Source of the DNA: Watersipora subatra
Lineage: Eukaryota; Bryozoa; Gymnolaemata; Cheilostomatida; Watersiporidae
Direction of reading: 5' to 3'
NCBI RefSeq assembly: GCF_963576615.1
Contig: NC_088714.1
Location: forward strand, 27,214,558 to 27,278,557
DNA length: 64,000 nt
The translations under genes and the position numbers were made by a program. Position 1 is the stretch's first letter. The number at the start of each line of letters is the position of its first letter. Under the pieces are notes generated by a model that was given only the letters and a program-made list of their open reading frames with translations, did no database searches and was not told where the DNA came from. This document shows positions 498-63,638 of this stretch, one piece after another.

Positions 498-3400
498 TTA
501 AAGTCCTGAAAAAGATGCTGGGCGAGTTTCCAAGTACGACTTGACTTTCGGATCGTTTTGGAAACTTTCTGTAAACTGTTTGACCCAAGGAGTGAGTTCC
601 AGGGCAGAGGAACAGGCCTTGCTGCTAAACTGGAGAGTGTTGAACACCCAGACATCCGCCAGGGAGATCTGCAAAAGTTGTGTCGGGCTTCTATTACAAA
701 TGGTAGTACAATATGTCATCATCATAGCAGTCTGTATATGAGACAATAACCACTTTTATATGGGTTTATTCAGTATCCTCAGCTTGTCCTATCTCGTGTC
801 AGTTGTTACAGCATATGTCAGCTTTTTCCATATTGCTCTTTAAATACTATGCACACAATCAAAAAAGTTTCATGGCATTGCAACATGGCCAGATATATTC
901 TTTTGGAATTAGCTAAAAAAGATGACTTTAATTTAATAACTGCATACAAAAGACATCAAAATATGTCATTTTAAATTTGAAAAAAATTGACATGTCATTA
1001 GCAAACTTGTCATTTAATATGAAATTTTAGAAGTATAAAAGTATGTCATTAATAATCATTAAACTTGATATTTATAATTTTACCTCAAAGCAATGGATAT
1101 GAAGGTTGCCAAAAAAAAACTGAAGTCTTCTGTTATTAACCAGTTATTTTACCTTAATGATGCACTCATGTCTACAAGTTCTAAACCAAGTCTAAAATAA
1201 ACTTTTTACAGCCACAACATTTCTAGGCTAGTTCTATGGCAGAACAGCTTTCTAATTGTGATTGCATTGTTCACAGGCTGAATAAAACGATCCTGGAAAA
1301 TTGGTTCGTATACACAATTGATCTAATTACCATTAAGGATACTTTCAGACAAAATGGAGTGTCCTGAGTGTGACACTGTGCTACCCAAAAGAGGAAAGGA
1401 GAAACATCCTGCAGATGGATGTCTGTTTACATTGAAGTACTAGTAGGCTCTGCAAGTGTTAAGATGTTTAAGCTACCATAAAATGTTGAAGAGCAGGTTG
1501 AATCTATTATCATAAAAGAGTGTAACACTAGGCTGAAAAAGTGAATGCGAAGGGAAAATTTTACCCTTTTTTAGCAAAAAAACATGATATTTCAGAATTT
1601 TTGCTAACATTAGCCCATAGTGTACAGTTTTGAGCTGGCAGTATAATCGTAGTGTTTATTACGCTAAAGTTTTATACCGTCTTTGTATTTTAGAACTTGA
1701 TTTTTGCACAAAAATTACTTGAATTTCCATTTACTGCAATAAAATTTCCATTATTTTAACTTATAAGTAGTAAATAGAAGTCTCCGATTTAAGTTTTTGT
1801 ATTTCTAACCATGTCTTTACATTAATTTTAGACTAACCGACATTAGACCAATTGGTATATTGGGAGAATTGATTTAGGTTAATTGTCTTTGGGCGAGTTG
1901 GTCTATCAGACCATTTGTATTTGGGCCAGTCGTCATTAGACCAACCATACAAAATCCTGCTAAAATTCTTCAACACTACAACTAATACCTTGGTTGAAAG
2001 GGTTAAACTGATAACCGAGAGTATTTACTAGAATGTACTAGTATGCTATGATAGGCAAGTAATACTGCGTGTTCATACACATAATAAGGAAATGGTAACT
2101 AGGAGGTAAAACAAAAAGATACCAATCAAGGAATGTCTACATCTATATATATATTTTTCAAAGTATGTCGTGTGTCATCATTCTGCATTCTGGCTGTAGT
2201 TATTAAAATCTTTATTTTGAAATTCTACATTCTGATGGATTTGAACTCATGACGAACTCAACAATATCACACCAACAAGTTTCTAATCCAGATGCTCTAC
2301 CACTGAGCTAGAACCGCATAGAGATCAAATATGTTTTCATATAACTGATACACCATGCCCGTGCTAATTATCTTAGCCTTGCGTCCACGAGTTATGATGC
2401 TCCTGTTCAGAAATATTTTGGTACGTAAGCATATGCGACGCGACGCTTATTCATTTTTTTTTGTTAAGGCTAATTTATTCCACCTCACGATATCGACAAT
2501 AATTTATCTCCAACTTAAAATTTGGCGACTTATGTACTGATTATATACCGTGGAACCTCGTTTCTCGAATGCTTCGGTTCTCGACCAACTCGGCTTTCAA
2601 CCAAAGATTTTGAGATTGGTTCGTTTTGGATCTCGAACATAAATTCGGTTCTAGACCAAACTGAAGCATGCGCATTGGAATTGGAACAGCTCCGGAAACA
2701 GCATGGAAACATTTGTTAACAAAGGGAGAAGCACTTTACGCTTCATAAATTCTCTACAAAAAGGGAAGAACCATCTGGGACGACGCCTCCTCTACCGAAG
2801 AATTTTGCTAAGGATAAAACCTCTCCAGTCGAGTTACCCTAAATTGTTTTGGAAAAGGATTATCCTTCAAAGATGTGAAGTAAACGTGCTACTGCTGTTT
2901 ATATGCTCCTTTTCCTGCGATTTTTGATCTAACTGATCTGTTGCATTTTTTTGCTGTTTCATTATAATTTCCTGCAATTTTTGTCATTGTATCTTAACCT
3001 TTAATGTTTTTGATGTTTTAAAAGCAAAACATACGGAATGTTTACGTTTGTTTTCTTTTTCCATCATCATAAATAGAAAACCTTTTATTAAAATGAAACA
3101 TGATTTATATCTATACCCGTTTTTATTTATAGTATGCAATATACAGTACAGTTTATGGTGTGAAATGTTGAAAAAATACTTTACCAAAGTTGTTTTCTTG
3201 CCTTGGAATGGATTAAAATTCACATACGTTTATTCTAATGGGAAAAATTGTTTCGGATCTCGAACAACTCGGTTTTGAACAACCTTCCGGAAGAGATTAT
3301 GATTGACAACTGAGGTTCCCCTGTACATTATTAAAATATATACATCGCTGAAAGTTGTGAAGTATTATATTTACAGTGGTTTGAAAACCTTTATAGCTGT

Positions 3401-6400
3401 TTTATTCATTTTTAATTTAGTTGTCCTGCAAAAACTTTCTTTTTCCTCATGATATAAAGTTTGAAAGTTACAGTTGTTTGAAAAAGTTTGAAAACCTTAA
3501 CAGCTGTTTTTATTTTCTCTCTTAATTTATTTTAACCACACACAACACTTCTCTCATGATATATAGTTTGAAAGTTAGAATGGTAAATGGTGTTATATTT
3601 TCTGTCCAAAAAGTTTTTTATTACCCGAGCAACGCCAGATAGCACAACAGTCTACTATATATCTAATATTATATAATCTAACAATATCTATATCTAATAT
3701 CTATTATAATCACCTGATCACCAAGGATAAAAGTCTTTCCTCTTTTTTCTGCAACTGACTGAACATAGTTCATCGCTTTCAATAACTTTTCTTTGAATGT
3801 TTCCAAAATCTTATCTGAATTCTCCGGCTCAGGAGTTCGTTTAAAAAGCAACCAAAAGTAAACGCTTTTTGCAAGGTCATTGGTACATTCTAAGCACGTC
3901 TCCATAACCATATCATTTAGAGCCTCTTCCCAAGCATTTCCTCCAAATAATCCTGCAGCATATAAAAAATTTATACGAAATATAAATTTGAATGCAAATT
4001 TTATAATTTAATTATGAAGCTAATAGGATCAAAGACTTGGGACTTCCTGAAAGGCGAGTGTATTTAGAAAAAAAGCTTCGAGCTAAAATACGATAGGAGT
4101 TTTACAATAATTATTAGAACACATGGCTATGTAGTGGAAGCCTAAAAATTATTGCATATGCCAGCATGTACTTATCACAAATTTTTACAATTTGCACTGT
4201 AATCTTTTTAGAAAACAAGAATTTTACCCAATTTCTTAGCAACGTATCTTGCTATAGAGTTGGACATGACTAGGTTCCCCTCTTCACACTCCAATACAGG
4301 TAACTGTCCCAGTGGCTGCACTAAAAAGTGATGAAAAAGATGATAATTTGTAACATTCTACATTACTACAAAGTAATACATATAATGGGAAGAGCAATAT
4401 CTTAACTAAATAAAAATAATTAATTGCTCTCCGCAATTAATTATTCAACTAATTGCTTTCCTCTCCACTTGCTAAAAACAATTTTAACATCCAATAAATA
4501 TGTGAATACAAGGTTTATAGTTCCACCCTGATACATGGTTTGCCTACATCTGGTTTATCTTTCACAAAACAAGACAGGTGTCTGTCTGAAGCTAGTGTTT
4601 GAGTTTAGGATAAAATATTGCACTGGAAAGACCTCAAACTTATAGGATCAAGATTCACTGTCCAACACTCTCATCCCTGTACCACTCAACCATCCTCTGA
4701 GAATAGCTGTGTAAACAGTTAATCTGTATGCTTCTACGACACACCTGGCAATCTCTCATGGCAAGCCGAACTGTCAGGGTCCTAACCTATCTATGTATAT
4801 ATTTCTCAAATTTGGTCGTCGGTCCTTTGGTATGACCAGCTATAGCGGTTAAAATCTTGGAACAAAGAATCCTTATCGCAGAACATCTGATATCGGACCC
4901 TCCGTATCCCCAGTCCAATGCCTTACCAGTTCAACCACACGAGCTTGACGGATTCATTAGGCGATATATGTCGCTATATGAGAGCAAATACTCTACCGCT
5001 CTCCGTCATGACGCAAAGTGATAGCGTAACATCATGAGAAGCGATAGCTCTTATTAGTAAGCTTACTCAAATTATCCATTGGCACTTATCCTTGCAAATA
5101 GCAGGCAACTCTCATTACCTCTCATTTTTTATAAACTGATTTTTAATAACCGAGCAACGCTGGGTAGCACAGCTAGTCCTATAATTAAAGCCATGTTGTC
5201 TGCCCGTCTGTCTGTAGTGACGCTGGCGAATTGTGAAAAAATTGCATCATACGAGATATGATCTCATATATATACATATGCATAATAATATGCATAATAT
5301 ACATACTGTAACTGTGCATTGTCACATGCTTGTGGTTTTACTAAAGTTAAGCTTAATGGGGCATGCAATAGTGGCTGTATTACATGCATAAAATGCATAC
5401 AAATGTTTTGTTACGTGATCGTTCAACATTGTAATATTCTAGCTGACAGTAAATTGTCTTAAAAAATCTTACATACATTATGACAACCTTTCAGCATCAG
5501 CAAGATTTATTAGTTTGCTGACCTGAATGCTTTAGCAAAATCTTTATTTCCAAGTTCTCTCTCCACCACTCGACCTCTTTTTAAAGCTATTGCAGTTTTG
5601 AACCGTTGATCTCTTACAAGAAATGAATGCTGTTTTGATACTCTATAGAACCTTGTTTCAAGTAAAAAATCAGCCATTGTTTAGACACTTTAACAAAAAG
5701 AACCTGAAACAAGAGGTATCAGTTCTGATCCTTAAAATTCTTTTGGAACGTTTTGTTCTTTTAGAAATCAATGCATGTTGTCATTCGATGATTTCTTCAC
5801 ACAAATTAAGCTGTTGTTCTAGCAGAGAGTCATAAAACTCTCATCGTACCCTCGTTGTTTCTATACCTTTTCCGTGTTTTCAGAAGATAATATTGGACAA
5901 AAATAAAACAAACAAAAAACTATTGCAATACTGTGAGTATATCACTTTACAAATTTTAAAAGTAAACTGATTTATTATTTGCACTAGAATGAATCTAAAG
6001 ATTCAGCCAATTAAACTTTTTTAAAAAGGTAGCAAATGTAAACTCCAACTATTTTCTAATGTTTTTGGACATATTCCTGTCTGAAAGTTTTAGACAAACG
6101 ATTATTATGCATAAAAATAAGATTGAGACTCTACCACTCACCAAAAACAATAAACAAAATGGCAGTAGAGAAGAGAGTGAGAGAAAACAGAAAGGTGCCT
6201 GGTGTATGCATTCACATTAGTTTGAATGTTGATAGTTACCATGCAAATAATTGCACAAAACTGCATGTTGAATAGTAAACAGTAAAATGGATACATGTAA
6301 TAATGGTATCTCAAGTCAACTGTTATTTGGTAAAATCTCTATTTGTGATGATATTTTGTAATCATATCTCATCACTTACTTGCTTTCACAGCTGGCCAAT

Positions 6401-6515
6401 CATCAAATTGAACTCTCACATCTTCAAAAGGCACTCCGGCAATACTATACAACATTCTGATTGACTCAGCCCTTGCGTACACAGGGAAATAAGTTAGTTT
6501 GTCTTTGGCTGCCAT
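498..6515 (-). CDS. Sigma-class glutathione S-transferase, gene A (4 coding exons)
   Basis: Coding exons on the minus strand are 6380-6515, 4228-4320, 3714-3952 and 498-668 (136, 93, 239, 171 nt), giving 212 residues in one open frame with GT-AG borders. The product should be a cytosolic homodimer that activates glutathione for conjugation or isomerisation of electrophiles. The thioredoxin-like N-terminal half has Tyr9 (catalytic), Arg15, Glu17, Trp40, Lys44 and the PLGQLPVLE loop near residue 48. The binding loop reads VMSNSIARY, with Met64 in place of the usual Gln and Ser65 kept. The helical C-terminal domain starts near residue 78 and contains ISLAD at 157-161. Intron 1 (4321-6379) holds a Helitron-like insertion and LINE debris; intron 3 (669-3713) holds a larger insertion. 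AATAAA lies 13 nt past the stop. The ATG follows CTGTAG, so a 5'UTR intron is likely. The closest relative is gene B, at about 87% identity by hand count. Confidence 0.93.
669..2141. other. GST-A intron 3, no further gene seen
   Basis: AT-rich intron sequence matching 14202-15785 of gene B throughout. It includes a short run of paired TTAGACCA-type motifs near 1830-1945. No coding or RNA gene is recognised. Confidence 0.6.
2548..3323. mobile_element. Pogo/Tigger-type DNA transposon (non-autonomous or decayed)
   Basis: A 776-bp element flanked by TA on both sides. The ends are inverted: CCGTGGAACCTC on the left, and CAGGGGAACCTC reading inward from the right, close to the CAGTGGAACCTCGG-type ends of pogo/Tigger elements. 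The left end continues with a repeated TCTCGAA/CTCGACCAACTCGG theme and the right with GTTCAAAACCGAGTTGTTCG. A short plus-strand frame near 2790-2850 reads TPPLPKNFAKDKTSPVELP, resembling a transposase tail; no full transposase remains. Confidence 0.65.
3330..3650 (+). repeat. 3' portion of the Helitron-like element
   Basis: This stretch carries repeated TTTGAAAACCTTTA/TAGCTGTTTT and CATGATATA(A/T)AGTTTGAAAGTTA motifs. It matches 17255-17560 of gene B in reverse orientation and part of 38640-38725, so it is a family-wide 3' module rather than unique sequence. Confidence 0.55.
4640..4745 (-). repeat. tRNA-like (SINE-type) module, shared with gene B
   Basis: On the minus strand this reads GATGGTTGAGTGGTACAGGG followed about 30 nt later by a degenerate B-box-like stretch, the layout of a tRNA-derived SINE head. 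The same copy is at 16990-17110 in gene B, so it predates the A/B duplication. It is too degenerate to be a working tRNA gene. Confidence 0.5.
4790..5176 (+). mobile_element. Helitron-like element in GST-A intron 1
   Basis: A 387-bp insertion absent from gene B. Target in A: TAACCTA|element|TCCTATAA; empty site in B near 17142: AACCTA|TCCTATAA. It starts TCTATGTATATATTTCTC and ends AGCAACGCTGGG...CAGCTAG, that is 5' TC, 3' CTAG, and insertion between A and T, the Helitron signature. An antisense tRNA-like module (on the minus strand, GCTCGTGTGGTTGAACTGG) is at about 4870-4950. No coding sequence. Confidence 0.75.
5836..5918 (+). mobile_element. LINE 3'-tail remnant, shared with gene B
   Basis: GATAATATTGGACAAAAATAAAACAAAC-type 3' end, matching 18138-18249 of gene B, where the upstream TGCACCTTGACTAGCCATGC of the same LINE family is clearer. 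It predates the A/B duplication. Confidence 0.5.
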
Positions 6516-8550: not shown

Positions 8551-8557
8551 CTTACTG

Positions 8558-8757: not shown

Positions 8758-8785
8758 TGAGTTCTGTTATTTTCCAAAATGCATC

Positions 8786-14030: not shown

Positions 14031-17000
14031 TTAAAGTTCTAAAATAGATGCTGGGCGAGTTTCCAGGTACGACTTGACTTTTGGATCGTTTTGGAAATTC
14101 TCTGTAAACTGTTTGACCCAAGGAGTGAGTTCCATGGCAGAGGGACACGCCTTGCTGCTGAACTGGAGAGTGTTGAACACCCAGACATCAGCCAGGGAGA
14201 TCTACAAAAGTTATGTCAGGCTTCTGTTACAAATGGTAGTACATGTAGGTCTTCATTATGGCCGTCGGTAAATGTGACAACAGCCACTCTCATACGGGTT
14301 CATTCAATATCTTTAGCATATCTAGTGATATCTAGTAGTATATTTAGTACTTCAATATATCTTTGCTCTATTCTATGTCAGTTGTTACAACATATGTTCG
14401 CTTTTTCTATATTGCGCTTTAAATGATATGCACACAATCAAAAAAGTGTCGTGGCATAGCAACATGGCCATATATATTCACTCAAAATTAGTTAAAAAAG
14501 ACAACTTTAATTTAATAAGTGCCTACAACAGATGTCAAAATATGTCATTCTAAATTTGAGAAAAATTGGGTATGTCACTAACAAACTTGTCATTTATTAT
14601 AAGATTGGAGAAATGTAAAAAGATGTCATTAATAATCATTAAATTTGACACTTATAATTTTACCTCAAAGCGGTGGATATGAAGATTGCCAAAAATAAAA
14701 AAAACTGAAGTCTTCTGTTATTAACCAGTTATTTTACTGTAGTAATGCACTCATGTCTACAAGTTCTAAACTAAGTCTAAAATAAACTTTCTCTAGCCAC
14801 AATATTTCTAGGCTAGTTCTATGGCAGAACAACTTTCCAATTGTTATTGCATTGTTCACAGGCTGAATAAAACGATCCTGGACAATTGATCCGACGATAT
14901 GAGTGGTCTAAAATTGATTGGTTCAAATACACAAGTGCTCTAATTACCATTAGGGATACTTTGAGACAAAATGGAGTCTCCTGAGTGTAAAACTGTGCTA
15001 TTTGAAAGAGAAAAAGGAGAAACATACTGCAGATGGCTATCTGTTTACATAAAAATACTAGTAGGCACTGCACATGTTGAAATGTTTAAGCTAACTACGG
15101 AATTATAATAAAAACAAAAAAATGTTGAAGAGCAGATTGAATCCATTATTAGAAGGTGTAATAGTAAGCTCAAGAAGAAATAGTGAATGTGAAGGGAGAA
15201 TATTGATTGTTTTTAGCAAAAAAGAAAAAATGATATTTTAAAGTTTCTACAAACAGCCATAATGTTTTGCAGCACATGTTATCAGCCCATAGGGTACAGT
15301 TTTGAGCTAGCAGTATAATCATAATATTGTTTATTACGCTAAAGTTTTATACCGTTTTTGTATTTTAAAAGTTGTTTTTTTTGCACAAAAATTACCTGAA
15401 TTTACATTTAATCCAATAAAATTTTCGTTATTTCAACTTATGTGTAGTAAATAGAAGTCTCTGATTTAAGTTTTTATATTTTCTTTCTTGTCTTTACATC
15501 ATGGTTTGTCTAACCGTCATTAGACCAAATGGTATATTGGAAGAATTGTTTTAGATTAAATGTCTTTGGACGAGTTGGTTATTAGACCATTTGTATTTAG
15601 GCCAATCGTCGTTAGACCAACCGTACCAAATCCCGCTAAAGATACATAACATAATAACTAATATCTTTGTTGCAAGGGTTAAATTGGTAACCTAAAGTAT
15701 TTACTAGAATGTACTAGTATGCTATGATAGGCAAGTAATACTGCGTGTTCATACACATTAAAAGGAAATGATAACTAGTCACTCAAACAGAAGGATACCA
15801 AACAAGAAACGTCTGTATCTACTATATATCTATACATTGCACAATATATTAATATCTATATCTAATATCTATAATCACCTGATCACCAAGAATAAAAGTT
15901 TTTCCTCTTTTTTCTGCAACTGTCTGAACATAGCTCATCGCTTTCAATAGCTTCTCTTTGAATGTTTCCAACATCTTATCTGAATCCTCTGGCTCAGGAG
16001 CTCGTTTGAAAATCATCCAAACGTAAACAGTTTTTCCAAGGTCATTGGCACATTCTATGCATGTCTCCATTACCATATCATTGAGAGCCTCTTCCCAAGC
16101 ATTTTCTCCAGATAAACCTATAACACATAGAAAATTTTATGTAAATTTACATGCAAATTTTATGATTTAATTATGAAATTGGCGCTCATTTTAAAAAAGG
16201 GTTAAAGACTTGGGACTAAAGAAAGACTTGGGTTAAAGAAAGGCAAGTGTACTTTACAAAAACATTTCGAGCTAAAATATGATAGTTTTACAATATTAAA
16301 ATGTATGTATACATAGTGGAAGCCTAGAAAATTATTGTATACAACAGCATGTACTTATTGGAAATTCTTACAGCGTGCACTGTAATTTGATAGAAAACAA
16401 GATTTTTACCCAATTTCTTAGCGACGTATCTCGCTATGGAGTTGGACATGACTAGGTTCCCCTCTTCACACTCCAGTACAGGTAGCTGCCCCATTGGCTG
16501 CTCTAAAAAGTGATGAAAAATATGACAACTTGTAACATTCTACATTAATCCAAATTATATGTAAGATGGAGAGAGCAATGTCTTAACTAAACAAAGGTAA
16601 TATCTCTGGAATAGATTTGTTCTGATTTCTTTTGCTTAGACAACTATGTTTTCTTCTTTAACAATCTCATCTGTTAACGCAGGCTCTGCACCCGAATAGC
16701 CATGCTACTGCACATATATGGACCCTCATTCCACCTTACTTTTCTTATCATCTTGTTATGTTATGATTTGATGTAAATAAAATAAACAAACAAACAAAAT
16801 AAGTACATGTAATTTGACCTCTCTACTTGCTAAAGACGTTTTCATCATTCAATAAATATGTGAATACAAGGTTTATAGTTTCACCCTGAAACATGGTTTG
16901 CCTACATCTGTTTTAGCTTTCACAAAACAAGACCAGTGTCTGTCTGAAGCTAGTGTTTGAGTTTAGGATAAAATATTGCACTGGACGGACCTCAAACTCA

Positions 17001-43668: not shown

Positions 43669-44389
43669 GTATGAGCATTGTGCTTCGCCGTAGTATGAGG
43701 CAGATCTGTAATATAGTTTGTACATTTATATAGTATTAGCTACCTGAAGGTGCTGCTTTAGTAAACAACTTTGGGATTCGACTAACATGTGTACAAATAC
43801 AATTGTGTTTTACAGCAACTTCTTTTTTCCATGAATCTTTTTTTACGTTGGGCTTTGAAGGTTTGTTTAGCTAATTGGCCAGCATCAGATACTGGTCGGT
43901 ATTTAGCGAGACTACATATTCTCCTTTGCTAGTTTTATCGCGTTTCTGCGTGAAAATGCGCGAAGCCCGATGAGTGAAGTTGGTAAGCAAACAGCAAACG
44001 TTTGAAACACTCAAAGGTTACTTTATGCTATAAAAATAGACTAGGATAGAAACCACATAATATAAGCATTTTCTTTCATCAATCCAACTATCGACTTCTC
44101 AGAACCTGCAATTAACAAGCGATTTTTGCAGTCAATTTGCTGAAAGGTCAAGTGATTAAATAACATACACCGGTGATTTGTTATGATGACTTGTTTACCT
44201 ACAGCATCACGTAAAACACTACTGTAAAATTGCACATCAATACTTCTAATATAAAAATGCTCTGGAAATCAGATTTCTTTTTTTAAAATAATAGTTATTA
44301 TTAAGCAGTTTTAATTTAATATATAATGTAATTGCTTGTCATCAGGACCATTAGCAAACATAATTTACATGATTCATAGAACCTTTACT

Positions 44390-44600
44390 ATAATAAGTAT
44401 AATAGTTCATCTTTACGTCCGTCCATCTGTCTGTATGTCCATCTGTCTGTCTGTACGTCTGTTCATCTTTTCGAAGTCACACTAAGGCCGTTAAGAAAAA
44501 TGACTCCACCGCACAGGAATCAAACCCCATATTCAAATTCTGATTTACAATCTGCACTACTCGATCACTTTTGACATTTAATAATAATTGTGCACATAGT
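44390..44600 (+). mobile_element. Helitron-like 5' part with tRNA-like module
   Basis: Begins ACTATAATAAGTATAATAG, then a CCATCTGTCTG-type tract. The minus strand has a clear B-box-like GGGGTTTGATTCCTG near 44515-44530. It lies just upstream of the gene E start. Confidence 0.5.
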
Positions 44601-44764
44601 TATTACATATGATGGTCTCTCACGGCTCACAAGACTGACACTATACTATTAACTATAAATACACAGTGTATAAACTAATCCTCTGCATATCTAACGTTTA
44701 TTATATCAAGTTAAATGATTTTTGTGTCTATTTAATATGTATGTGACATATTTATTTGGCATAG

Positions 44765-47700
44765 ATGTCTGCCGGAGACAAGCTTGTATACTTCACAGCG
44801 CATGGAAGGGCTGAACCTACCAGAATGCTCTACATTGTGGCAGGGAAAAGTCTAAATGATGTTCGGGTGACTCACCAGGAATGGCCAATAATGAAAGGAG
44901 GTGAGGCAACTTCAATTTGGATGAATGTTTTATTGTTAGTACTTGTATATTGGTTTGATTGTCAGAGTGAGTTTGGCCTTAATCTTAGAATACTTCTACA
45001 TGTGTTCTATGTCATAATGTATATAATCTTAGAATACTTCTACATGTGTTCTATGTCATAATGTATATAATCTTAGAATACTTCTACATGTGTTCTATGT
45101 CATAATGTATATAATCTTAGAATACTTCTACATGTGTTCTATGTCATAATGTATATAATCTTAGAATACTTCAACATGTGTTCTATGTCATAATGTATAT
45201 ATACATAATCCTATATGTCATATATCCCATAAGACATATCCCATGGTCATAGACATCCATTTGAATTACAATACTGCTGCGCATTTGGAGTATAACATTG
45301 TCATTAAATATCTAAGCAATTTGAGATGTGTACTGGCATATTGCTAATAGCTTATAATATACCATGGCCATAGACATCTAAATAGTTTGATATTTTTACT
45401 AAAATATTGCTAATAGCGTGAAATTTCTCAAGGTCCTAGATAGCCTACATCTAAGCAATATGAATTTTGTACAAATATATTGCTAACATTTGGTAATACT
45501 GCAAGGTTATAGATATCTAGAATAGTTTGATATTTTTTCTGTGTAATATCTTCAGGTCATAGGGTCTATATGTAAATAGTTTGAACTTTATACTAAAATT
45601 CTACTAAAATAGGTATAGTATTGTGAGGGCATAGACATGTGAATAATCTGTAATTTGTTAAAATATTGCTACAAATGTGTGTTAGTATAGCAAAAGCAAC
45701 AGCCATGCAATGCACATTTTCATTGTCTAAATAAAATACAGTTAATAATATGAATGTTAACAGTTAACATGTATGAATGTTTAAACAAAAATATTTGCAT
45801 AAGCTACAATATGAAAATTGTCAAACAAAATCCCCATGATTGTAATCTGATGAAAGTACCTGATAGCAAAGGTGTGTTCCCAACAGTTGTTTGCATTATT
45901 CAACAAGAGAGGTTTATGACAATTCAGGTGTTGTACATCGATCAGAGAATTCTTCCATCTGAGAGAAATGCAAGAATCCTTATAGGGAACCCACTTTTGA
46001 GTTAGTAAGACTGAATATGGACATGGATAAACTTACTAAAATACCTATTGATTGATGACAATGCTACTTGATGTCATTTCTCAATGCCAATATCAAATTA
46101 GTAGCTTATAATAAGAATAGTATTTAGTTGTGATTTCTAGAGTAAAAACTTTAGCTTTATTCCGAGATAAAGATCTACTTCTGAACATATACTGCTACAG
46201 CTAGTCCTATTATAATGTAACATCTGGAAGGTTAGATCAAATTCTACAGAGTGTGAGATATGCTTTTGCTATAAACAAGTACTGTTTGGAATTTGTGTAC
46301 AAATACTTGTGCCTAAATATTTAAATGAGGTTAAATGTTACCAGGTAGTACTATGCAATGACTAAGTGTTACCAGGTAGTACTATACAATGACTAAGTGT
46401 TATCAGGTAGTACTATGCAATGACTAAGTGTTATCAGGTAGTACTATTCAATGACTAAGTGTTACCAAATAATACCATACAATGACCCAGCAATTTATCG
46501 CTAAAACTTTGGTTATCCAAGAAGGCTGTTAACAAAGTGACACAGCAAAAGTTGATAGTGTTTATTCCTTTGCTCTGCTTGCTTAGCCTTTTCCACATTT
46601 TTGCTAAAATTATTTTCGAGGTAAATTCTTACTCAAAGGTACTTCGACTGTTATTTTAAACTGAATGAAGGAAACATTTTTATGCATTTATTGCTTACAG
46701 CATGCGATTAGCAAAGAGTATTTGACTAACTCTCACTAAAAATAGCATTTTTGATCGACAATTATTGCAGGTATTTTTGTCTCGCTGAAGGACTTGCTCA
46801 CTGACTGAGCATGCCAATTGAACATTATTGAACTTCTCATATGTTCCGGGCAAAAGTGACACAACATCATAAATGTTGTGTCATCTGTTATTTGGTCTGT
46901 CCAGCAACAGTGATTGGTACATAGCAATGACAAATCTGTATCACAAAGGATTTGATCTCGGAACCTCCGATCACCACGCAATAACTTACCCAATTGAGCT
47001 ACGCATGCTTCTGATAAGTGTGAGCCCCTTTGTGTGAGGTCCTGATAATGACTCATAAGCGGGCGATGTGAGTTGCTATCAGGGTTGAAATACGCATAGC
47101 AATCTGAGTTATTCAATTTTAATAAAGCTTGCTCTCACAGCTCTTATTAGGAAGTTTAGCAATACAGATACTAACTTATTCAAATTAGCGATTGGCAATG
47201 TGTCAGGCTAATGGCAAGTGGTAGGCAACTACCTTACCTGCAACTGTTTATAAGCTGTTTTTAATACCTGTGCAACACCGGTCATTCATCTAGTCTCTAC
47301 TCTAATAAGAGCCGTGTCTGTCTATCCGTCTGTCTGTCCAAAGCAACAGCTAGAGGCTGGAAAAAGGATTGCACTGTACGGGGTTCAAACTTGTTGTAAT
47401 AATGAAACTCGTGAAACAATGTATAATTTAAGAGATTGGAAAACTACATATAGTTTTGTGGTGACAACATATGCTTTATATAAGCCCTTTTATTTGACTA
47501 AGTTATTATTTGGTTTCACACTCTGTTGAATACTGTTAAAATAACACTGAAATATTTGTGCTTTTTAGAAAGGTAGTAACCTGAGAATGTTAATGATTTA
47601 CAGGTTTTTATGATCACCTACACATGTTTATCGTACTTATACAGTTGTATATCGAAAGCTAAACATAAAGTTTTTGATAAGATTGCATAATGCTGTAGGT

Positions 47701-50700
47701 GTTACATCAAAATTTTTTTTACTTCATAACTTTCGACTGCTTTTCATGAAGTATAATCTTAGCTATTTTTTATCAACTAATGTTTGCGCATATAAAATGA
47801 CAAAATTTTTTTTAACAATTTTCCACATTTTTGTATGAATATATTGCTTGCTTAAGTAAGAAAGCTTTAGACAGCAATGTTTATAGGTAGAGCATTGGTG
47901 CATTTGATGTTTAATCCAATTAATTTGTAGAGAAATGCTTTTGTACATGTAACAGTTTTAGTTGACATGTGAGTAACATGTACTTGTAAGTACAAAATCT
48001 CAATGTAAGTAAGTTGGAGATTTGCAGAAATAAAGAGCGCCCTTTACTCAAAGAATTAAATCTCTTAACACAATGATCTCTCACAAATATGATCTCTTAA
48101 CACAATGTGATATATAAACACGCTGTGTATCAATTATCAAAATTATCAACAACTTTCTGAAAGTTTTTAAAATGAACAAGATCTTTACTTAGCTACCCAA
48201 ACTTTTAAAATGCGTCTGTTCAACTCACTCAATAATTTTTGATTTCTTTTTCAATTGTTCTTCTTTCTTTTAGTATCTAACAAAAACATCATTTTTGTTT
48301 ATAATTACCAATGCCAATAAAAGTTATACTTACAATTCATGAGTGCATGGTAAAGTAAGATTACGCGTGGTCTTGTTCTTTTGAAAACTGTCTTGCTTAC
48401 ATTGAAATCTGTTACTATAGTAGCATATAAAAATAAAAATTATATAAAGTGAACCCAACTAATAGTAAAAACTTAATTAAAATAACCAAATAAGAATAAT
48501 AATTCATTCACTACTACATATAAGTTGTATATTGTAGAACAGCCACTTGGCCAAGTCCCAGTGTTTCATTGTGAGGAGGGGTCTCTTGTCATGTCTCGGA
48601 CCATAGCAAGATTTGCAGCTAAAAGATTAGGTAATTCTTAATTTACCACACCATAAATTTGAAACCAAATTATTTAAATTTTGACTGCAGATCTTTGGAT
48701 TCTTGTATTTACAGATACAGTTTGGTTATCCTTGCAACGCATTACATGATAATCTACCATATTTAAATTTAAGTACATTATAATATAACGTATTTAATCT
48801 TACAATATAGTATTTTAGACTCTAGAATCTTTTGCATTGAAATTGCAAAAAATGTTGAAGCTTAAAAATTAATTTAGTGTTGTAAGTTCACCACAGAAAG
48901 ATTAAGTGCTAAGAAGAACTTGTTTTTTGCACTTCAAACTGCACTAAATTTATTAAAAATATTTAGCATGTCTATGCTTTTGAAAGCGAAAAGTTTGTGC
49001 TTTTATGCTGTACAATTTTTTGGCAATCGCCTACACGTGTTATCTAGAACGCTTGTAATTTTTTGGAAGATAAAAAACCTTCTTGGTGAACAGAGTTATT
49101 GTTTTACTATATCACACTTTTGCAAATTTGGTAAAACAAAACAGTGACTATCAAAGCATAGTAAATGAAATTTTAAGAAGATTCTAAAGATTGTTTCTAA
49201 AATTTCATGTTGCTTGACTGCAGTTGGCAAACAATGTGATATCACTTGACAGCAAAATGGTACCATGTTGTGATACTATTCTTACCAATATTAAAAATAG
49301 TATCTTGAGCCCACAAAAATAACGCATAACTGAAAATGTAATGAATTAGATTTATCAAACTATTTGTTTTTGGACACATCCCCTATTACTTGTCTCATAA
49401 AGTAGTATTAAAAAAATTTGGCAAAGATACCAATTTTATTTTGACAGGAAAATAATTTGACAAAAACTTAAATTCTGCATTGTCACTGCCATAAATTCAT
49501 AGATATATAATCACATTATAAACATATATACACATAGATGCATAAACCTATGGAGACATAAGCATATAGAAAAATAAACCCATAGACCTATAAGCTTACA
49601 CACACATAAATTCATAGTTGTATAAACACATAGACATATAAATATAAACACATAGGCATATAAACTCATAGACATATTAATTCATACAAATATAAACTCA
49701 CAGACATTTAAACTCATAAGCGTGTACTTTCATAGGCATATAAAAGTATAGGCATGTATAGGCCCATACAATTATAAACTCATAGACATGCCAACTCATA
49801 GACATGCCAACTCATAGACATATAACCGCATAACTGTTATATGAAACAGGATTAGTTGGTGAAACAGCTTGGGATGAAGCAATGAATGACATGGTGGTGG
49901 AGACCTGCTCAGACTGCATGGAAGAAATCACAAGAGAAGTTTATTACTGGTTGATTTTTAAACGCTGTCCTGAGCCTGAAGACTCTGCCAAGGTAAAGGA
50001 AGCAGTCAGAGGCAAAATTGTGAAGTCAATGAACTTCATACAGTCTCTGGCTGAAAAGAAAGGAAAGAAATTTATTCTAGATGACAAGGTAATTGCCTTT
50101 ATGCATGTTACAAAGCTACTACACGTATGTCACGGGTAACACAATACATGCTTGTTTCTATTAGATATGCTTACTTTTGTAATGTTAACTATGTGCATAT
50201 AATATACAACATATGTGCATGTTTATATAGCTCATAAGTTACATGTAACACGCTACATGCCTACTTTTACTAGATATGCTTACTTTTGTAATTAATTAAG
50301 GTGAGATTAATCTGAATGAAGCCAAGTGCAACATGTTTTACCTATAATATAAAAATTTAAAAAGGCTGATATCATTGTTAACACAAATTTCAGAGCTTCC
50401 AATGAATCTACAGTAATCAAAATTAAAATGCCTTTTGAGCGTTATGACTGATAAAGAATTTTTAGTTTGTACAAAAATGGAACATTACAAGATGCAATTT
50501 GGAGAAATAATAAGTTAGTTTTTGTGCACTTTAATTTTGGTAAAGGGTTTGAAAATGACCAAACATTTTGATTAAATATAAACCGTAGTGAACAGAATAT
50601 AAAACTGTTTTGTGTAATCGGATCATACAGAAGCCAAAGTCTAGGCTTAACCTCAGTTCTCAGGTTACATTTGCGTCGCCATAAACGCATAAAAAATGGT

Positions 50701-51407
50701 ACATGTAGCTTTATTTTTTTAAATAGGTGTAACAACAGCTTCTAAGGTTTTTTAAAAAATGACACCATACTTTTTATTATTAGCTCCACGCATTAAGTTA
50801 GATTTTTGTAAGTGTTGTGCTACATTGTTTCATACAAAAAATTTGTATTTAATTTTTTTTGGTTTTATTATTAAATGTTATTCTTATGTAAATATTCATC
50901 CAGCACAACTGATATTTCATTACTATTTTGTTTGCAACGTTTTTCATTGGTAGTACATCATGAGAGCCTGCATCAAACTGAATAGATTCTCAAATGTTCA
51001 GGTAGATCGACGAGTGCGTACAATTGAAGAGTTGTCTTTCACCTTATGAGTGGCCAACTCCTAAGTAGGCATGCTAATCGCTCTAAACAAACTACCTGTA
51101 GAAGGATGAACAGTGCATACAGAATTAAGGCAGTGCTATGTTCAAGGCTGCCGTATGCTGCTCAGAACTCCCACTTGCGATTCTAGTACCATTTGAACAA
51201 GTTAGCAATAACAATAATTAACATTCTTTGTTTCAGATACTTTTCGCTGATATCGGACTCTACTGTTTCTTAGAATTTGGACGAAAAGCTTTTCCAGATT
51301 TGCTTGAAATTACGCCTTGGGTAAAAGAATTTGTAGAAAAGTTTCAAAATGATGAAAGAATTAAAAACTATCTGGCAACTCGACCACCATCTCCAATTGG
51401 AATCTAA
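44765..51407 (+). CDS. Sigma-class glutathione S-transferase, gene E (4 coding exons)
   Basis: Coding exons are 44765-44900, 48538-48630, 49850-50088 and 51237-51407, with the same four lengths, GT-AG borders and 212 residues. Tyr9, Arg15, Glu17, Trp40, Lys44 and PLGQVP are present, and the loop reads VMSRTIARF with Met64-Ser65. The C-terminal domain begins with AWDEAMNDM, as in gene D. Exon 4 differs from its paralogues: it reads ILFAD where the others have (I/V)SLAD, so the helix-cap Ser158 is Leu, while Asp161 is kept. Intron 1 (3637 nt) contains a five-copy 44-bp tandem array, further degenerate repeats and a Helitron-like copy. The ATG follows TTGGCATAG, which suggests a 5'UTR intron; a candidate first exon lies near 43590-43668. 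AATAAA at 51980 may end the transcript. Confidence 0.93.
44982..45200. repeat. 44-bp tandem repeat (about 5 copies) in GST-E intron 1
   Basis: Nearly identical units containing TTAGAATACTTCTACATGTG and TTCTATGTCATAATG, starting about 80 bp past exon 1. Confidence 0.95.
45235..45700. repeat. Degenerate ~90-bp tandem repeats
   Basis: Recurring GGTCATAGACATCTA, AATAGTTTGATATTTTTACT and ATATTGCTAATAGC motifs spaced at about 80-100 bp. Confidence 0.55.
46333..46475. repeat. 31-bp tandem repeat (4 copies)
   Basis: Units of TTACCAGGTAGTACTATGCA plus ATGACTAAGTG. Confidence 0.9.
46830..47293 (+). mobile_element. Helitron-like element in GST-E intron 1
   Basis: The right end has CCTGTGCAACACCGGTCATT and ends CATCTAG|T at 47293. 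An antisense tRNA-like module (minus strand GCGTAGCTCAATTGGGTAAG) is near 46945-47010. A second family 5' end (TCTCTACTCTAATAAGAGCC) starts directly after it, so two copies sit head to tail. The left border is approximate. Confidence 0.6.
47294..47400 (+). mobile_element. Helitron-like 5' fragment
   Basis: Starts TCTCTACTCTAATAAGAGCC with a GTCTGTCTGTCC tract and GGGGTTCAAAC (B-box-like). It fades into intron sequence. Confidence 0.45.
49500..49835. repeat. CATAGACATATAAACT degenerate tandem array
   Basis: About 20 loose copies of a 16-18 bp unit, ending about 15 bp before exon 3 of gene E. Confidence 0.8.
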
Positions 51408-54000: not shown

Positions 54001-54002
54001 TA

Positions 54003-55350: not shown

Positions 55351-55385
55351 GGCATTTCTTGTGGATCTCAGCAATTTTCTTTAAT

Positions 55386-56727: not shown

Positions 56728-57373
56728 ATGGTAAATGAAGACAAGCTCAAATACTTTGATTTGTACGCTAGAGCGGAGCCAACCAGGATGCTTTATGCTG
56801 TTGCTGGTCAGCCATTGCAAGATGTCAGGGTGTCATTTAAGGATTGGCCAGCTATGAAAAACGGTTGGTATAATCTATATGTGTGACTTCGTAAGCAATG
56901 GAAGAGTGACTTGTAATGATTTCGCAAAGTTAGAGCATGATGACATGCCAAATGAGTTGCAGCAGAATAATTTGATGCCAATCAAACATTTATCATATTA
57001 GCACCTCAGGCTCTTCCAACTCCTTTGCTCCCTTACTTTATCTCTCTATCTCTCTATCTCTCTCTCTCTTTCACCACTCACTTTCTCTTTATCTCTCTCC
57101 CTCTCTCTCTCTTTCACCACTCACTTTCTCTTTATCTCTCTCTCTCTCTATCTCTTTCACCACTCACTTTCTCTTTATCTCTCTATCTCTCTCTCTCTCT
57201 CTCTCTTTCACCACTCACTTTCTCTTTATCTCTCTATCTCTCTATCTCTTTCACCACTCACTTTCTCTTTATCTCTCTCTCTCTCACTCACTACTCTCTC
57301 ACTACTCACTCACTTTCCCTCTCTCTCTCTCTCTCTCTCTCTCACTCACTACTCTCTCACTACTCACTCACTT

Positions 57374-57417
<44 letters not shown>

Positions 57418-60400
57418 ACTACTCTCTCACTACTCACTCACTTTCCCTCTCTCTCTCTCTCTCTTTCTCTCTCTCGTGCAGTTGGTCATGTTGGCGAAGG
57501 CTGCCTCATGGTTTAGGTTTTATCACTGACTTCTATGCAGCTTTGTTTTCCAGTTTTCTCGTTTTCTAGTTTCTAGTTTCTAGTTTTCTCTTAAGGAGTA
57601 TAGCTTGTTATGAACCAGAAAGTAAATGGTGACTTGACGTCATTTTAAATATTTTAAGACGTCATTCTATACTTTAGTAGAGCATATAATATAGAAGTAA
57701 ATGTTGGCCTACTATTTCTGTGTGTGACTCACTGAGTAACTTGCTATCAATTATAAACTAAAATCACAGCATGTACTACTAACTGCTAATCCTAACTTGA
57801 TTGAACCGTTAGGAGGGATTCTGACTTATGAGCCTAATCTCAAACTCAATAAATATTTATGGAAAGACTGCTGTCATTTAGCTAATAGCTGACTCAGCAG
57901 TTTTTAATTGATTGGTGATTTTACCTGCTGTCTTTTTCATTGCGCAATTTTGGAAACTCTTCGTAGCTAATGATGCAATTAAACAACATAGGGCTTGACT
58001 TTATGGGTCTCTGTAGTTGATAGCAGCCTTGGTGCATCAGTTAAGGTGGTAACTTATGATCAGTAGGGGCATACAAACACAAAGCAGACTGTTCATCGCT
58101 GGATTTTGATCGCTATAACTGGACACAGGGATCAAAACAAAAGACCATCAAAGCGACAAATAAACACTGAGGTTTATACACATAATATGATATACTTATA
58201 TGTAAGAGCCATAGAAATGATAAAAACGTCTTAGTCTAGTGGTTATGCGTGCTTGTTAGTAGACTTGTGGTTTGAATGTTGTGAGTTGAAATCCTCTGCA
58301 AAGTTTAAATTTAATTGCTGGATTTTAATCGCTTTAGTTGGACACACTGAGGAAAACAAAAGACCAGTGGTTTGAGGTCACACAAGAACAATTGGCAGTG
58401 TTAGAAAGGGTGTCCAACCACAATATTACTTCTGTGCTACATTTGTCCAAAGTCTTCATACCCCAGTACAACCTCCCTCCCCCACCCGACTCCTCCCCTC
58501 CCTCCCGTTATCAAACTATAAACATTCGATGAGCTATTTTTATAGTAACCAAATAGCCACAGCAGCTATCCAGCCAAGCTGTAAAATTGCTATTCACGTT
58601 AGGGCCATTTTAAAAGGTATATTGTTCAAAGATGCTAATATGCACACGAGAAAAGACAACTTCCTTTTATACTAAATGTTCATAACTTCTCGCCTTCAAA
58701 TTAAAAATATTAGTACTTTGTCAGTCTAGTGTGATGTAAGAGATCATCAGGTGAGGTATAAAGTACAGAGAATAACTATGCGCACAAGTATTCTAAAGAA
58801 GGTGATTGATTAGTGCAGATGTTAGAGTGCTGGGGTCGTGACCCAACACTCATGAGCTAGAATCCCGCTTAAAACTGTCATTTACCCCTACATCTAACCG
58901 TAGCTTCAGACAGATGAATATACACAGTTCTTATTATAGTAAAGGTTTAGTAAAGAATCTTTTTACATGTAAAGTTCTTTTTGTAAATGCAGATGCGATA
59001 AATTTTGTGGTTTTTAATGCAATCTGTAGTTTGAAAGACAATTTCCGCTCCCATACAGTGTCTGGAGAGTTGGCTCTATACAGTGTCTGGAGAGTTGGCT
59101 CCATGGTAATAACCAGCTATTTATAAGAGCTTTGTGGTGCCTTACTTTCTAGCCTAAATTCAGTTTACAAGTTACAAGGTTTATATGCGTAGCAGATAAA
59201 TGAAAAAAAATCAAATATTCTAACTTTTGAGGCAAGATGTTTATACCATTTGTTGTTGTAGCCCAGCCTCTTGGACAGATGCCAGTGCTAGAGTGTGCAG
59301 CAGGGACTCTGGTAATGTCCAACTCTATTGCAAGATATGTGGCTAAAAGATTTGGTAAATATTTACTAACCATTACCTTTGCATTAAGAGTTTTGTTAGG
59401 ATGATGACAATCTTGTTGATGATGTAAAGCCTTTTAGGGTAGAGGACATGTAAAACTAGCTTTAAAATTTATAAAGGATTAAGTCTGACTTTAGGAAGGG
59501 ACAAAACTATAATACATTAACTACTTTATTACTTTATCAACTTGTTGTGACAGTAGTTAGCGAAGTCTCCAAAAATGCGAAGTTAAAAATAAAATTTTCA
59601 GTTTTGCATTTTTTATTACTTCTTATTTTACAGCATCTAATGCGCAATGGCTAAACAGTATTTAAATTTTTAAAATGATTTTACTAATAATTTACAGAAA
59701 GCTTTAAAAAGAATATGGTGAAGAAGTGAACTCATTGTGGTATAACTTTGTGCAAAGCTTTTTATTGCTAACCATTTTTTAATTCAACTAAAGTTTTTTG
59801 TTTTAGAAACACAACACTGGGTGTTAGATTATAATGCTTCCAACATTTTAAAAGCACATCATAAACATTAATTTGAATAATAATGTAAAAACCTAAATGT
59901 TTAACTAAATGGTTAGTTATGTTTCACTACAATTATACACATTATAAAGAGCATAGCGCATGAAGGTCAGTTTGTTTTTTGTTGGTTAAATAATCAATTT
60001 AATGACTGAACCTAGTTTTTGTGTTTTTTTTCTATCTCATCTTGGCTTAAAAGTTATATAAGTATTAGAGTAATAGTAATCATCAAAAGACATCAATGGT
60101 TAGAGCCGTAATTTATTAAATTTATTTAACTAAAGTTATTCTTTAAATAGGTTTTCTTGAAGAAATTTTTTCTAAGGATTTTCTTGAACCAGAAAAAAAC
60201 ATATTCGTAATATTATACGGAAACTTGCTATATGTTTGAGAAAAGTAGTACCCTATACTAAAATTTAATTGAAAAAAAAACTTGTACTTCGAATATTCCA
60301 TAAAATAAATATTTCTTAAATAAAGTTCATTTTAAGAAATTTATTTAAAGAATGGAATTCATTATTTATTCATAATAAATTTATTCATTTAAATAAAATT

Positions 60401-63400
60401 ATTCTTTAAATAGGTTTTCTTTAAGTAATTTTTTCCAAGGATTTGTTTGAACCAGAAAAAATGTATTCTTAATATTATACGGAAACTTGCTACAATGTTT
60501 TTTTTTCATTTAGCTCTGCAACTAGTTGAAATGTTGGCTATTTTAAACAGGGCTGTCTGGGAAGACTGCTTGGGAGGAAGCTCTCAATGACATGGTGGTA
60601 GAAATGTGCATAGACTGCTATGAAGACATCGCTCAAAAGATCTATTACTGGCAAATCTTTAAACGCCAACCAGAGCCCGATAACTCTGACATGATAAAAA
60701 GAGAAATCAAAGAAAGAATTATGATGTCACTTAAATTCATAGAGGCACTTGCTGACAAGAGAGGAACAAAATTTATTGTTTGCAATCAGGTAATCAGGGA
60801 CACTATAAAACAGTAAATTAAATGTTTTGTGAATACAACATGGATGAGTAGGGCTACTTATTTTACTTTATTTAAATAACCCACTGAGCACTACTGCTCT
60901 CCAGAATAATCTTCTCAGCCCTTGAGGTCTTTTTGTAATTGTTATTCTTATTCATAATCCCTACTAAAATGTCTAGCTGACATTTTTATGAGCAGTATCA
61001 TAACCTAAAATTTTGGAAATAAGCAAAATTTTAAATCCGTCAAAATAAAACATTTTTAGTAAATTTGTAAAAATAATTCCAGTCAGAACTGCTCTGGAAA
61101 AAAAAAGTTTGTAGCATTGACTAACAAGTTGCACTTTGCACTAACACCTGCACAGTTGCACTAACACTTGCACAGTTGCACTAACACTTGCACAGTTGCA
61201 CTAACACTTGCACAGTTGCACTAACACTTGCACAGTTGCACTAACACTTGCACAGTTGCACTAACACTTGCACAGTTGCACTAACACTTGCACAGTTGCA
61301 CTAACACTTGCACAGTTGCACTAACACTTGCACAGTTGCACTAACACTTGCACAGTTGCACTAACACTTGCACAGTTGCACTAACAGCATTGACTAAAAT
61401 TTTTCATTGCCTATCTTTTGAGTTATTAAGTATGGCCTATGTTGCCATGTTAACTACTAAACTTTTTTAAAAGTAATATATAAAATTGTAATGATATAAT
61501 GCCACAATGTTATTTTCTGTAATTTACATTTTTGTGAGTATGTGAAATGAAAATTAACTGCATAATGTAGTTTTTAACACCTTTGTCAAAAATACTGCTA
61601 CAGTAACATACATTTCTGTTATCTTTTTAAATATTTCTATCTTTTTAATGCCTCATTTGATTTTAAATGTTTGTTTTACCAGAAATGCGTAAAACATACA
61701 CTTAAAGGCTGATTTGCAACAGAATTTACATTACGGTTAATTGCTATCCAAAGGTTCAACATGTCTTACTCTGCTGTGTTGTAGGTTCAATGTATGTAGA
61801 AATGTGATTACAAGCTCTTAAAAGCTTAAAAACAAACAGTTAAAAATGGCTGTAGGTTGGAATCCCTTTATTTTGATGACGTACTCAACTCGGCATGGTT
61901 ATTGTTTTGGTACGTGATGTCATCTATGAAATGAAAGGCCAATAAAAGACTCAATATAACACATCTTGTAGCACTAGTTTATGACAAACACTTTGGGTTC
62001 TATCGGAAAGCCTGTATCAAATATAAATGCTCATTACTTTACAGTTTCGTTTCAGCTTGGTCTAATCATCTAGTCATAGTCTGATCATGTGATCCATATT
62101 TTCTGCCAAATGGCGCGAACAACTTCTACAGCATTTGTCGATCATCACTGGTGACCAACAGGCTTCTCATGTTTATCAGAGAATGATATGCACACCCTCG
62201 AGCTAAGGCTAAAAAATTAAACTACTATTTAAGCTCGGTTTTGAGATATCAGTGCTCAAAGTGACAGTATTACAATAATAATGAAATAGACAATAACAAA
62301 AAACATGGTTTTATTGAATGCATGAAGTATATTTGTGAAAATAGTTTGACGAATAAGGTTGCATAAAAGTGTAAACAGAAGCACATCATTTTCAACTAGG
62401 TAAAATTTGAGCTGTTTTGAGAGGGATTCCAACCTACGGACATTTTCATGATGGCTGCAATTAACCGTTCGTTTTTGAGCTTTTAAGAGCTTTTAATCAC
62501 ATTTCCACATATTTTGAACCTACAACACAGCAGAAAAAAACATTGTGAACCTTTTAATACTGAATAGCTGTGTGATTTTTGTTGCAAGTCAACCTCTACT
62601 GTAATATTCAAATTGCCAACTATTGCCTTTGCTAATTGCCAACTATTGCATTTGCTAATTGCCGACTATTGCCTTTGCTAATTGCCAACTATTGCCTTTG
62701 CTAATTGCCAACTATTGCCATGCTTGTTTGCTCGTATGAAAACTTATAAAACTCTAGAAACTCAATTGGTTTGATATTTTTAAAAGGCTGCAGACCTTAT
62801 GTAAAATTTACCAAATTTACAATGATATTATTATCAACATGTGGGTATTATCTTTAAAACTTTACCTGTGTAACTTTTGGTTTAAACAGTTTGAACAGAA
62901 TGAATATTTATAAACTCGAAGTAGCTCTCAGTTACACCATAGCAGAGGTTCTGCTTATCATAGTTACTAATTACCACCTAAATTTTTTTTCATTTTCAAA
63001 CACTTGCTACAATAGCTATGATTATTATATGCACTAGAAAGTCTATAAATTATAAAGATTTTTTAACCATGAAGTCCATTTTAGCTTTATACCGCAACTC
63101 CCACCTTGTAAAGAGTTGTTTCCCTTTGTTAAAAAAGAAGATAACACCCATTCTCAAATATATCTCAATGAGTCTATGGTTGCCTTCCTATTAAGCATTA
63201 AGTCACTCTCTTGCTAACAGTGATTACAAACTGCTACATTAATAGCAATACATATTTATTGTCCTCCGATCATCATAAATACTTATTGTTTTATTTGTTA
63301 TTGCAAAAAGGAGCGAAACTTTTACTTAATGAAAATGTATTTTGAGTTTAACGATTTGGTGAAGGAAACCCAACTGCCAAAAGATTTGAAGTTGTGAAAG

Positions 63401-63638
63401 AAATATTTTCATGCTCGCATATCTGATTTTTGTGTGTTTTAGTGTGCTGTACACTCATATGTTGCAGATATCCCTGGCGGATGTCTGGTTGTACAGTTTT
63501 TTGGAGTTTGGATTGGCTGCCTTTCCAGAGCTAATGGACGTAACTCTGTGGGTAAAAGCATTTGTGGAGAGAGTTCGTAATACAGCTGAGATGCAGAGTT
63601 ACCTGGCAACAAGGCCAGCTTCTCCAATTGGTGTTTAA
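56728..63638 (+). CDS. Sigma-class glutathione S-transferase, gene F (4 coding exons)
   Basis: Coding exons are 56728-56863, 59262-59354, 60551-60789 and 63468-63638, lengths 136/93/239/171 nt, GT-AG borders, 212 residues. Tyr9, Arg15, Glu17, Trp40, Lys44 and PLGQMPVLE are present, the loop reads VMSNSIARY with Met64-Ser65, and ISLAD sits at 157-161. Exon 2 has CAAGTL where the paralogues have CEEG or CEKG, so the acidic pair is lost. Exons 1-3 resemble genes A-C (for example AWEEALNDMVVE), while exon 4 is close to gene D over its first half. Intron 1 holds a 440-bp CT array and Helitron-like pieces; intron 2 has a 95-bp repeat pair; intron 3 has a 13-copy 20-bp array and an inverted-repeat element. 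The ATG follows TGTTACAG, a clear acceptor. AATAAA at 63831 with a T/G-rich follow-up ends the gene. Confidence 0.93.
57035..57476. repeat. CT microsatellite with nested higher-order units, GST-F intron 1
   Basis: CT runs interrupted by TTTCACCACTCACTTTCTCT and by ACTCACTACTCTCTCACTAC, giving two families of longer units. A polypyrimidine tract on the sense strand of gene F, but far from any acceptor. Confidence 0.97.
57860..58190 (-). mobile_element. Helitron-like copy in GST-F intron 1
   Basis: A tRNA-like GGTGCATCAGTTAAGGTGG module near 58030, GATCGCTATAACTGGACACA at 58110 and an AT-rich end near 58190. The 3' end is not clear. Confidence 0.4.
58205..58490 (+). repeat. tRNA-derived SINE-like copy in GST-F intron 1
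   Basis: Head with TTAGTCTAGTGGTTATGCG (A box) and GAGTTGAAATCC (B box), then a body with AAGGGTGTCCAACCACAATA like that at 36200. Confidence 0.5.
58770..58950 (+). repeat. tRNA-like/Helitron-like copy in GST-F intron 1
   Basis: TGATTGATTAGTGCAGATG and GCTAGAATCCCGC (A- and B-box-like), ending with the reversed 5' motif TTCTTATTATAGTAAAGGTT. Confidence 0.45.
60140..60498. repeat. 95-bp direct repeat pair in GST-F intron 2
   Basis: Copies at 60140-60235 and 60402-60498 share CTTTAAATAGGTTTTCTT and ATATTATACGGAAACTTGCT, separated by about 165 bp. Confidence 0.85.
61125..61387. repeat. 20-bp tandem repeat (13 copies) in GST-F intron 3
   Basis: Almost identical TTGCACTAACACTTGCACAG units. Very homogeneous, so recently expanded. 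Confidence 0.97.
61703..62597. mobile_element. 895-bp inverted-repeat element (MITE-like) in GST-F intron 3
   Basis: Arms of about 190 bp are inverted copies: left TTAAAGGCTGATTTGCAACA ... GTAGGTTGGAATCCC, right GGGATTCCAACCTAC ... GTTGCAAGTCAACCTC. Both arms include the GAACCTACAACACAGCAG sequence. The centre has no open frame of note, so it is non-autonomous. Confidence 0.8.
62610..62725. repeat. 23-bp tandem repeat (5 copies)
   Basis: TGCCAACTATTGCCTTTGCT plus AAT units, right next to the inverted-repeat element. Confidence 0.92.

Follow-up and report, generated by a model that had tools for sequence, protein, structure and literature searches.

The window, i.e. the whole 64-kb stretch of DNA analysed (C7:27214558-27278557 of a 784-Mb genome, presumably that of an animal), carries six genes of the GST family, designated A to F. 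Gene models were reconstructed on the basis of tblastn anchors and splice sites, and all splice junctions are predicted. Window coordinates of the genes, their exons and the region between genes D and E are as follows.

6515-498, minus strand: gene A, overall
6380..6515, minus strand: gene A, coding exon 1, 136 nt, AG immediately 5' of the ATG
4228..4320, minus strand: gene A, exon 2, 93 nt
3714..3952, minus strand: gene A, exon 3, 239 nt
498..668, minus strand: gene A, exon 4, 171 nt including the stop
18844-14031, minus strand: gene B, overall
18709..18844, minus strand: gene B, coding exon 1, 136 nt, AG immediately 5' of the ATG
16410..16502, minus strand: gene B, exon 2, 93 nt
15879..16117, minus strand: gene B, exon 3, 239 nt
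14031..14201, minus strand: gene B, exon 4, 171 nt including the stop
30822-27612, minus strand: gene C, overall
30687..30822, minus strand: gene C, coding exon 1, 136 nt, GC donor, AG immediately 5' of the ATG
28324..28416, minus strand: gene C, exon 2, 93 nt
27922..28160, minus strand: gene C, exon 3, 239 nt
27612..27782, minus strand: gene C, exon 4, 171 nt including the stop
41313-33775, minus strand: gene D, overall
41178..41313, minus strand: gene D, coding exon 1, 136 nt, AG immediately 5' of the ATG
38751..38843, minus strand: gene D, exon 2, 93 nt
36419..36657, minus strand: gene D, exon 3, 239 nt
33775..33945, minus strand: gene D, exon 4, 171 nt including the stop
44765-51407, plus strand: gene E, overall
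44765..44900, plus strand: gene E, coding exon 1, 136 nt, AG immediately 5' of the ATG
48538..48630, plus strand: gene E, exon 2, 93 nt
49850..50088, plus strand: gene E, exon 3, 239 nt
51237..51407, plus strand: gene E, exon 4, 171 nt including the stop
56728-63638, plus strand: gene F, overall
56728..56863, plus strand: gene F, coding exon 1, 136 nt, AG immediately 5' of the ATG
59262..59354, plus strand: gene F, exon 2, 93 nt
60551..60789, plus strand: gene F, exon 3, 239 nt
63468..63638, plus strand: gene F, exon 4, 171 nt including the stop
41314..44764, no strand: intergenic region between the head-to-head genes D and E, 3451 bases from the gene-model coordinates

The D/E intergenic region probably contains both promoters and, if the reading of the AG/ATG junction given below is right, probably both 5' exons as well. 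A nearly identical 25-bp minisatellite lies shortly before the ATG of genes A (23 copies, 6775-7349) and B (11.8 copies, 19083-19380). The window further includes an ORF with an FADDTN motif at 12683-13306 on the plus strand, which we take to be reverse-transcriptase-like, and a VDSGC stretch with stops nearby at about 1-280 on the minus strand, presumably retroelement-protease-like; both are probably mobile-element debris. A Pfam search with three other ORFs of the window, including the FADDTN ORF, gave no match at E 0.001, and no RNA families were found within the window at gathering scores.

The rebuilt models reproduced in all six genes the coding exons of 136, 93, 239 and 171 nt with phases 1, 1 and 0 that had been reported in the first-pass annotation, and coding introns of 139-3637 nt agree with the 26-fold size spread given there. 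Each gene comprises 639 nt with the stop (212 codons and a stop codon), and the reading frame is open throughout. The coding introns end in AG in 18 of 18 cases and begin with GT in 17 of 18, the exception being a GC donor in intron 1 of gene C (AAG/GCAAGT, window 30681-30686, minus strand). Within 30 nt of this site, a GT donor that is open and in the same phase exists only at +18; hence the 136-nt length of gene C exon 1 depends on the GC donor. Several exon-2 and exon-3 acceptors have alternative same-phase AGs within 30 nt, and the predicted exon ends are therefore well supported but short of proof.

Protein searches of the same genome showed that the six genes are the part of a larger array that falls within the window. 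Two further array genes (N39 and N40) are located upstream at C7:27.165-27.184 Mb and one (N41) downstream at C7:27.286-27.289 Mb, 7 kb beyond the window. Gene counts from this search are lower bounds, and the array thus has at least nine genes. As it runs past both window edges, the six genes are less 'clean' a family for studying duplication than had been proposed. A sister cluster of the same GST family was found at C7:24.27-24.69 Mb, and a more distant GST cluster of about 11 genes on C3. The three neighbours and 17 sister genes were modelled, which together with the six window genes gave 26 family models; three of the about 11 C3 genes were modelled in part. In the 26-gene tree the split between the array and the modelled sister genes had an ultrafast bootstrap of 97%. 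The six window genes did not form a clade, N39, N40 and N41 being interspersed among them with weak support.

Elsewhere on C7, a displaced partial family copy was observed at C7:30131241-30138739, whose exon 1 does not lie in its normal order with respect to exons 3 and 4. Within the sister cluster, the segment at C7:24.61-24.69 Mb contains two near-identical gene types alternating in the order a, b, a, b, a, b, b, with genes of the same type about 15-21 kb apart; this is a recently amplified two-gene unit.

Family identity was examined by Pfam for two of the six window genes, A and E. Gene A exceeded the cut-off for GST_N (34.9 bits) and GST_C_3 (53.9 bits, E 2e-14), and gene E only for the C-terminal models GST_C_3 and GST_C, while an NCBIfam search matched chiefly bacterial GST models and was uninformative. 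A profile built from 10 family proteins was searched against solved structures. Among the best 60 of 209 matches, Na-GST and similar proteins, which we take to be nematode GSTs, ranked first, followed by S-crystallin OctvuS4 (4e-30) and a squid GST (9e-28). Within the same 60 matches, pi (9e-25) and alpha (3e-24) GSTs scored slightly better than the sigma-class HPGDS (2e-23), and partly for this reason the family is named only 'sigma-like'. As judged by these matches, the array would consist of sigma-like cytosolic GST genes, and its members are ordinary new members of a known family.

Tyr9, presumably the N-terminal catalytic Tyr of cytosolic GSTs, and Arg15, the active-site Arg, are kept in all 26 aligned proteins. 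Residue 65 is Ser in 25 proteins and Thr in one. Residue 17 is Ala in B, Gly in D and Glu in the remaining 24 of 26. To our knowledge, the Gln of the Gln-Ser pair at the glutathione site is a conserved residue and not one that defines a class. It was present in all five solved relatives whose alignment was examined. The corresponding family position, residue 64, is Met in all nine array genes; 16 of the 17 sister genes have Leu, His or Asn there, so that Gln is retained in only one of 26 proteins, a further reason for the name 'sigma-like'. Family position 64 was equated with S-crystallin Gln64 via the Gln64-Ser65 pair. In the portion of PMC4976375 available, a role is described for the active-site Arg, and Gln64 of S-crystallin is presented as seemingly indispensable both for binding GSH and for catalysis. 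The replacement of Gln by Met in all nine array genes thus leaves the catalytic role in doubt, and glutathione conjugation or binding by the array proteins is a putative activity.

Comparison with the wider family indicated how the equal exon lengths arose. Exon 1 is 136 nt in all 26 models, and each of the three C3 genes fetched has a 136-nt exon 1 and a 93-nt exon 2; hence the lengths represent an inherited design. The complete set 136/93/239/171 occurs in eight of the nine array genes, the exception being N41, in which exon 3 is 236 nt with one codon lost. Of the 17 sister genes, nine have an exon 2 of 93 nt and eight have one of 99 nt, the latter with an acceptor 6 nt further upstream (one of the nine 93-nt models has AG at both positions). 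Exon 3 is 242 nt in 16 sister genes, counting G44, the exon 3 end of which was shifted one codon by hand to a GT, and 236 nt in one; exon 4 is 165 nt in 16 and 162 nt in one. Every exception involves whole codons. Two sister groups reached the 242-nt exon 3 via insertions that the alignment places differently, and equal length therefore need not mean equal history. The claim that no codon has been gained or lost thus stands within the six window genes but does not extend to N41 or to exons 2-4 of the sister genes. The equal exon lengths are mostly inherited architecture with rare whole-codon changes.

The strictness of the retention depends on the reference chosen. In the alignable parts of the A and B introns, 44 indels were counted over 2808 aligned bases, which gives a neutral expectation of about 10 indels per 639 nt, as against none seen in the coding sequence. 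By the family's own rate, taken from seven length-change events tallied manually across the 26-gene tree outside the six-gene subtree, about 3.3 changes were expected on that subtree, and the probability of none is about 0.04, a rough and post hoc value. The tree used for this rate omits two codons of exon 2, since a length of 93 nt was assumed for this exon in every one of the 17 sister genes, including the eight with 99 nt. The absence of length change in the six genes therefore exceeds chance under neutrality, whereas relative to the rate of this constrained family it is mild.

Equal lengths could also have been produced if the exons had been homogenised by gene conversion in recent times or by a very recent duplication. 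Genes A and B are indeed close, with 91.5% nucleotide and 87% amino acid identity. The other 14 pairs share only 50-62% protein identity, and their synonymous sites are saturated. The exons of A and B are similarly alike (0.90-0.93), with none standing out. Recent conversion as the source of the equal lengths was ruled out for C-F by their divergence, and for the set as a whole this explanation is most improbable. Inheritance from a common ancestor followed by maintenance accounts for the lengths better.

Pairwise dN/dS, which had been proposed as a check on function, was 0.135-0.278 by the NG86 method in all 15 pairs and supports purifying selection, although synonymous sites are saturated in 14 of the 15 (NG86 dS 1.4-2.6) and those omegas are rough. 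A one-ratio codon model for the nine array genes gave an omega of 0.147. Codon-model tests used 210 codons of the nine genes, after removal of the first codon and of the one that N41 lacks, on a tree in which some inner nodes had 21-26% support. When terminal branches were freed singly, omega = 1 was rejected in seven of the nine genes (C-F and N39-N41). It was not rejected for gene A (omega 2.3, p = 0.77) or gene B (omega 0.70, p = 0.78). For the A-B pair, maximum likelihood gave an omega of 0.36, which rejects 1 (p = 6e-4). Continued purifying selection on the array genes is thus supported. The view that selection has continued on all six holds in that dN/dS is below 1 in every pair, but since the terminal branches of A and B are singly compatible with omega = 1, the claim for 'all of them' carries less weight in the youngest pair. 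Similarly, length retention had been offered as evidence of selection; dN/dS supports the constraint itself, but length is a poor argument for any one copy, as the design is inherited.

The A and B branches, neither distinguishable from 1, would suit the idea that certain copies are drifting or no longer function, equal length being only a lag, as would the loss of Glu17 from B and D, which the other 24 proteins keep, and the state of the neighbour N41, which lacks an ATG at the usual place and has one codon fewer. This is unlikely given that the A-B pair as a whole rejects omega = 1, that the branches of C-F and N39-N41 do so too, and that internal stops occur in none of the 26 models.

A further feature of the array lies at the start codon. 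An AG directly abuts the start position in all nine array genes (e.g. window 6516-6517 and 44763-44764) and is found before the start in none of the 17 sister genes and none of the three C3 genes. As it has been kept although silent sites are saturated, it points to a splice acceptor. The array genes probably have a 5'-UTR intron that ends at the ATG, which would imply an upstream exon. Scored with an acceptor matrix, the nine AGs fell at the 44th-99th percentile of 7421 AGs on both window strands, six of them above the 85th percentile and those of D, E and N40 being weak. The matrix was trained on 33 distinct sister-gene acceptors; because this set is small and from relatives, the presence of the AG in nine of nine array genes versus none of 17 sister genes, and not the scores, is the main argument.

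Upstream comparisons, which for N39 and N40 covered about 0.5 kb, did not reveal a 5' exon common to diverged copies. Homology between A and B upstream of the genes extends to the ATG, and a clear exon was not found in the A/B comparison; the sequence AAATG/GTAAGT, conserved at -1643 (A) and -1354 (B), is a weak 5' exon candidate. Comparison of the N41 upstream region with the other copies yielded no 5' exon, the only matches being two short and weak ones with E and with A. N41 retains the AG and the reading frame at the usual start without an ATG (L041 513-521), and its terminal branch has an omega of 0.09. This combination fits a start in an upstream exon, or else a recent loss of function.

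An AG at the start position could instead be the acceptor for trans-splicing of a spliced leader. Its presence in nine of nine array genes and the failure to find a 5' exon shared by diverged copies (within about 0.5 kb for N39 and N40) are what would be expected in that case. Against this, neither the 17 sister genes nor the three C3 genes carry it; moreover, in an epsilon GST of a moth a cis intron lies just before the ATG (PMC2990328). Trans-splicing is therefore quite unlikely, and a cis intron remains the preferred interpretation. The gene concerned, Plutella PxGSTe, has a 718-bp intron directly before the ATG that was demonstrated with cDNA (PMC2990328, as far as its accessible text goes). 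It resembles the array in the cis intron before the ATG, as compared with the AG/ATG junction proposed here, and according to the same part of the source it differs in being an epsilon-type gene without introns in the coding region.

It may be asked whether the array is a derived sigma-like branch in which both control (the 5' intron at the ATG) and chemistry (Gln64Met) have changed, its proteins perhaps binding glutathione differently and being more binding or structural than conjugating. Under such a scenario the start codon of N41 would have to come from an upstream exon. We regard this scenario as doubtful.

The reading that we favour, with a probability of about 0.9, is that the six window genes are members of a tandem sigma-like GST array of at least nine genes, whose equal exon lengths were inherited from a common ancestor and maintained. 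Local duplication would have produced the array genes, with retention of an ancestral layout of four coding exons and phases 1, 1 and 0. In a compact two-domain enzyme in-frame indels would rarely be tolerated and frameshifts not at all, and it is for this reason that equal exon lengths would be maintained, whereas introns, free of constraint, vary widely in length. Each array gene probably has an upstream exon spliced such that the 136-nt exon begins at the ATG. The gene models, their lengths, the array context, dN/dS below 1 and the AG at the start position were observed; transcription and the 5' exon would follow from the sequence pattern. Identical coding-exon lengths among paralogues are thus mostly inherited and are not independent evidence of selection on each copy. 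Two modest leads remain: a probable 5' intron that abuts the start codon in this array only, and the near-universal substitution of the glutathione-site Gln across this GST sub-family.

The four coding exons and three introns with phases 1, 1 and 0 in all six window genes are as in sigma-class genes. A study of human and mouse HPGDS by Kanaoka et al. in 2000 reportedly states in its title that the ancestral genomic structure of sigma GSTs is conserved. A partial search of the literature found no paper on this array. Trematode sigma GST genes, in the part of PMC3656158 consulted, are each split into four exons by three introns, which occupy orthologous positions among them but vary in length, and the window genes are alike in the number of exons and introns and in the variability of the latter. 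The moth sigma gene PxGST likewise has four exons with phases 1, 1 and 0 (PMC2990328, same portion as above). Exons 2 and 3 of PxGST, by the coordinates stated there, are 171 and 140 nt; hence not every intron position is common to the moth and window genes. The array differs from both the trematode and the moth sigma genes in comprising at least nine copies at one site. From S-crystallins, which have a long loop insertion separating helices 4 and 5 (PMC4976375, in the section available), the window proteins differ in being 212 aa without a long insert, and no insert of this type was found in the family alignment. The likeness to cephalopods lies in the clustered expansion of GST-derived genes, the GST/S-crystallin clusters numbering 139 genes in Doryteuthis, 77 in Euprymna and 27 in Octopus according to the accessible part of PMC9068888.
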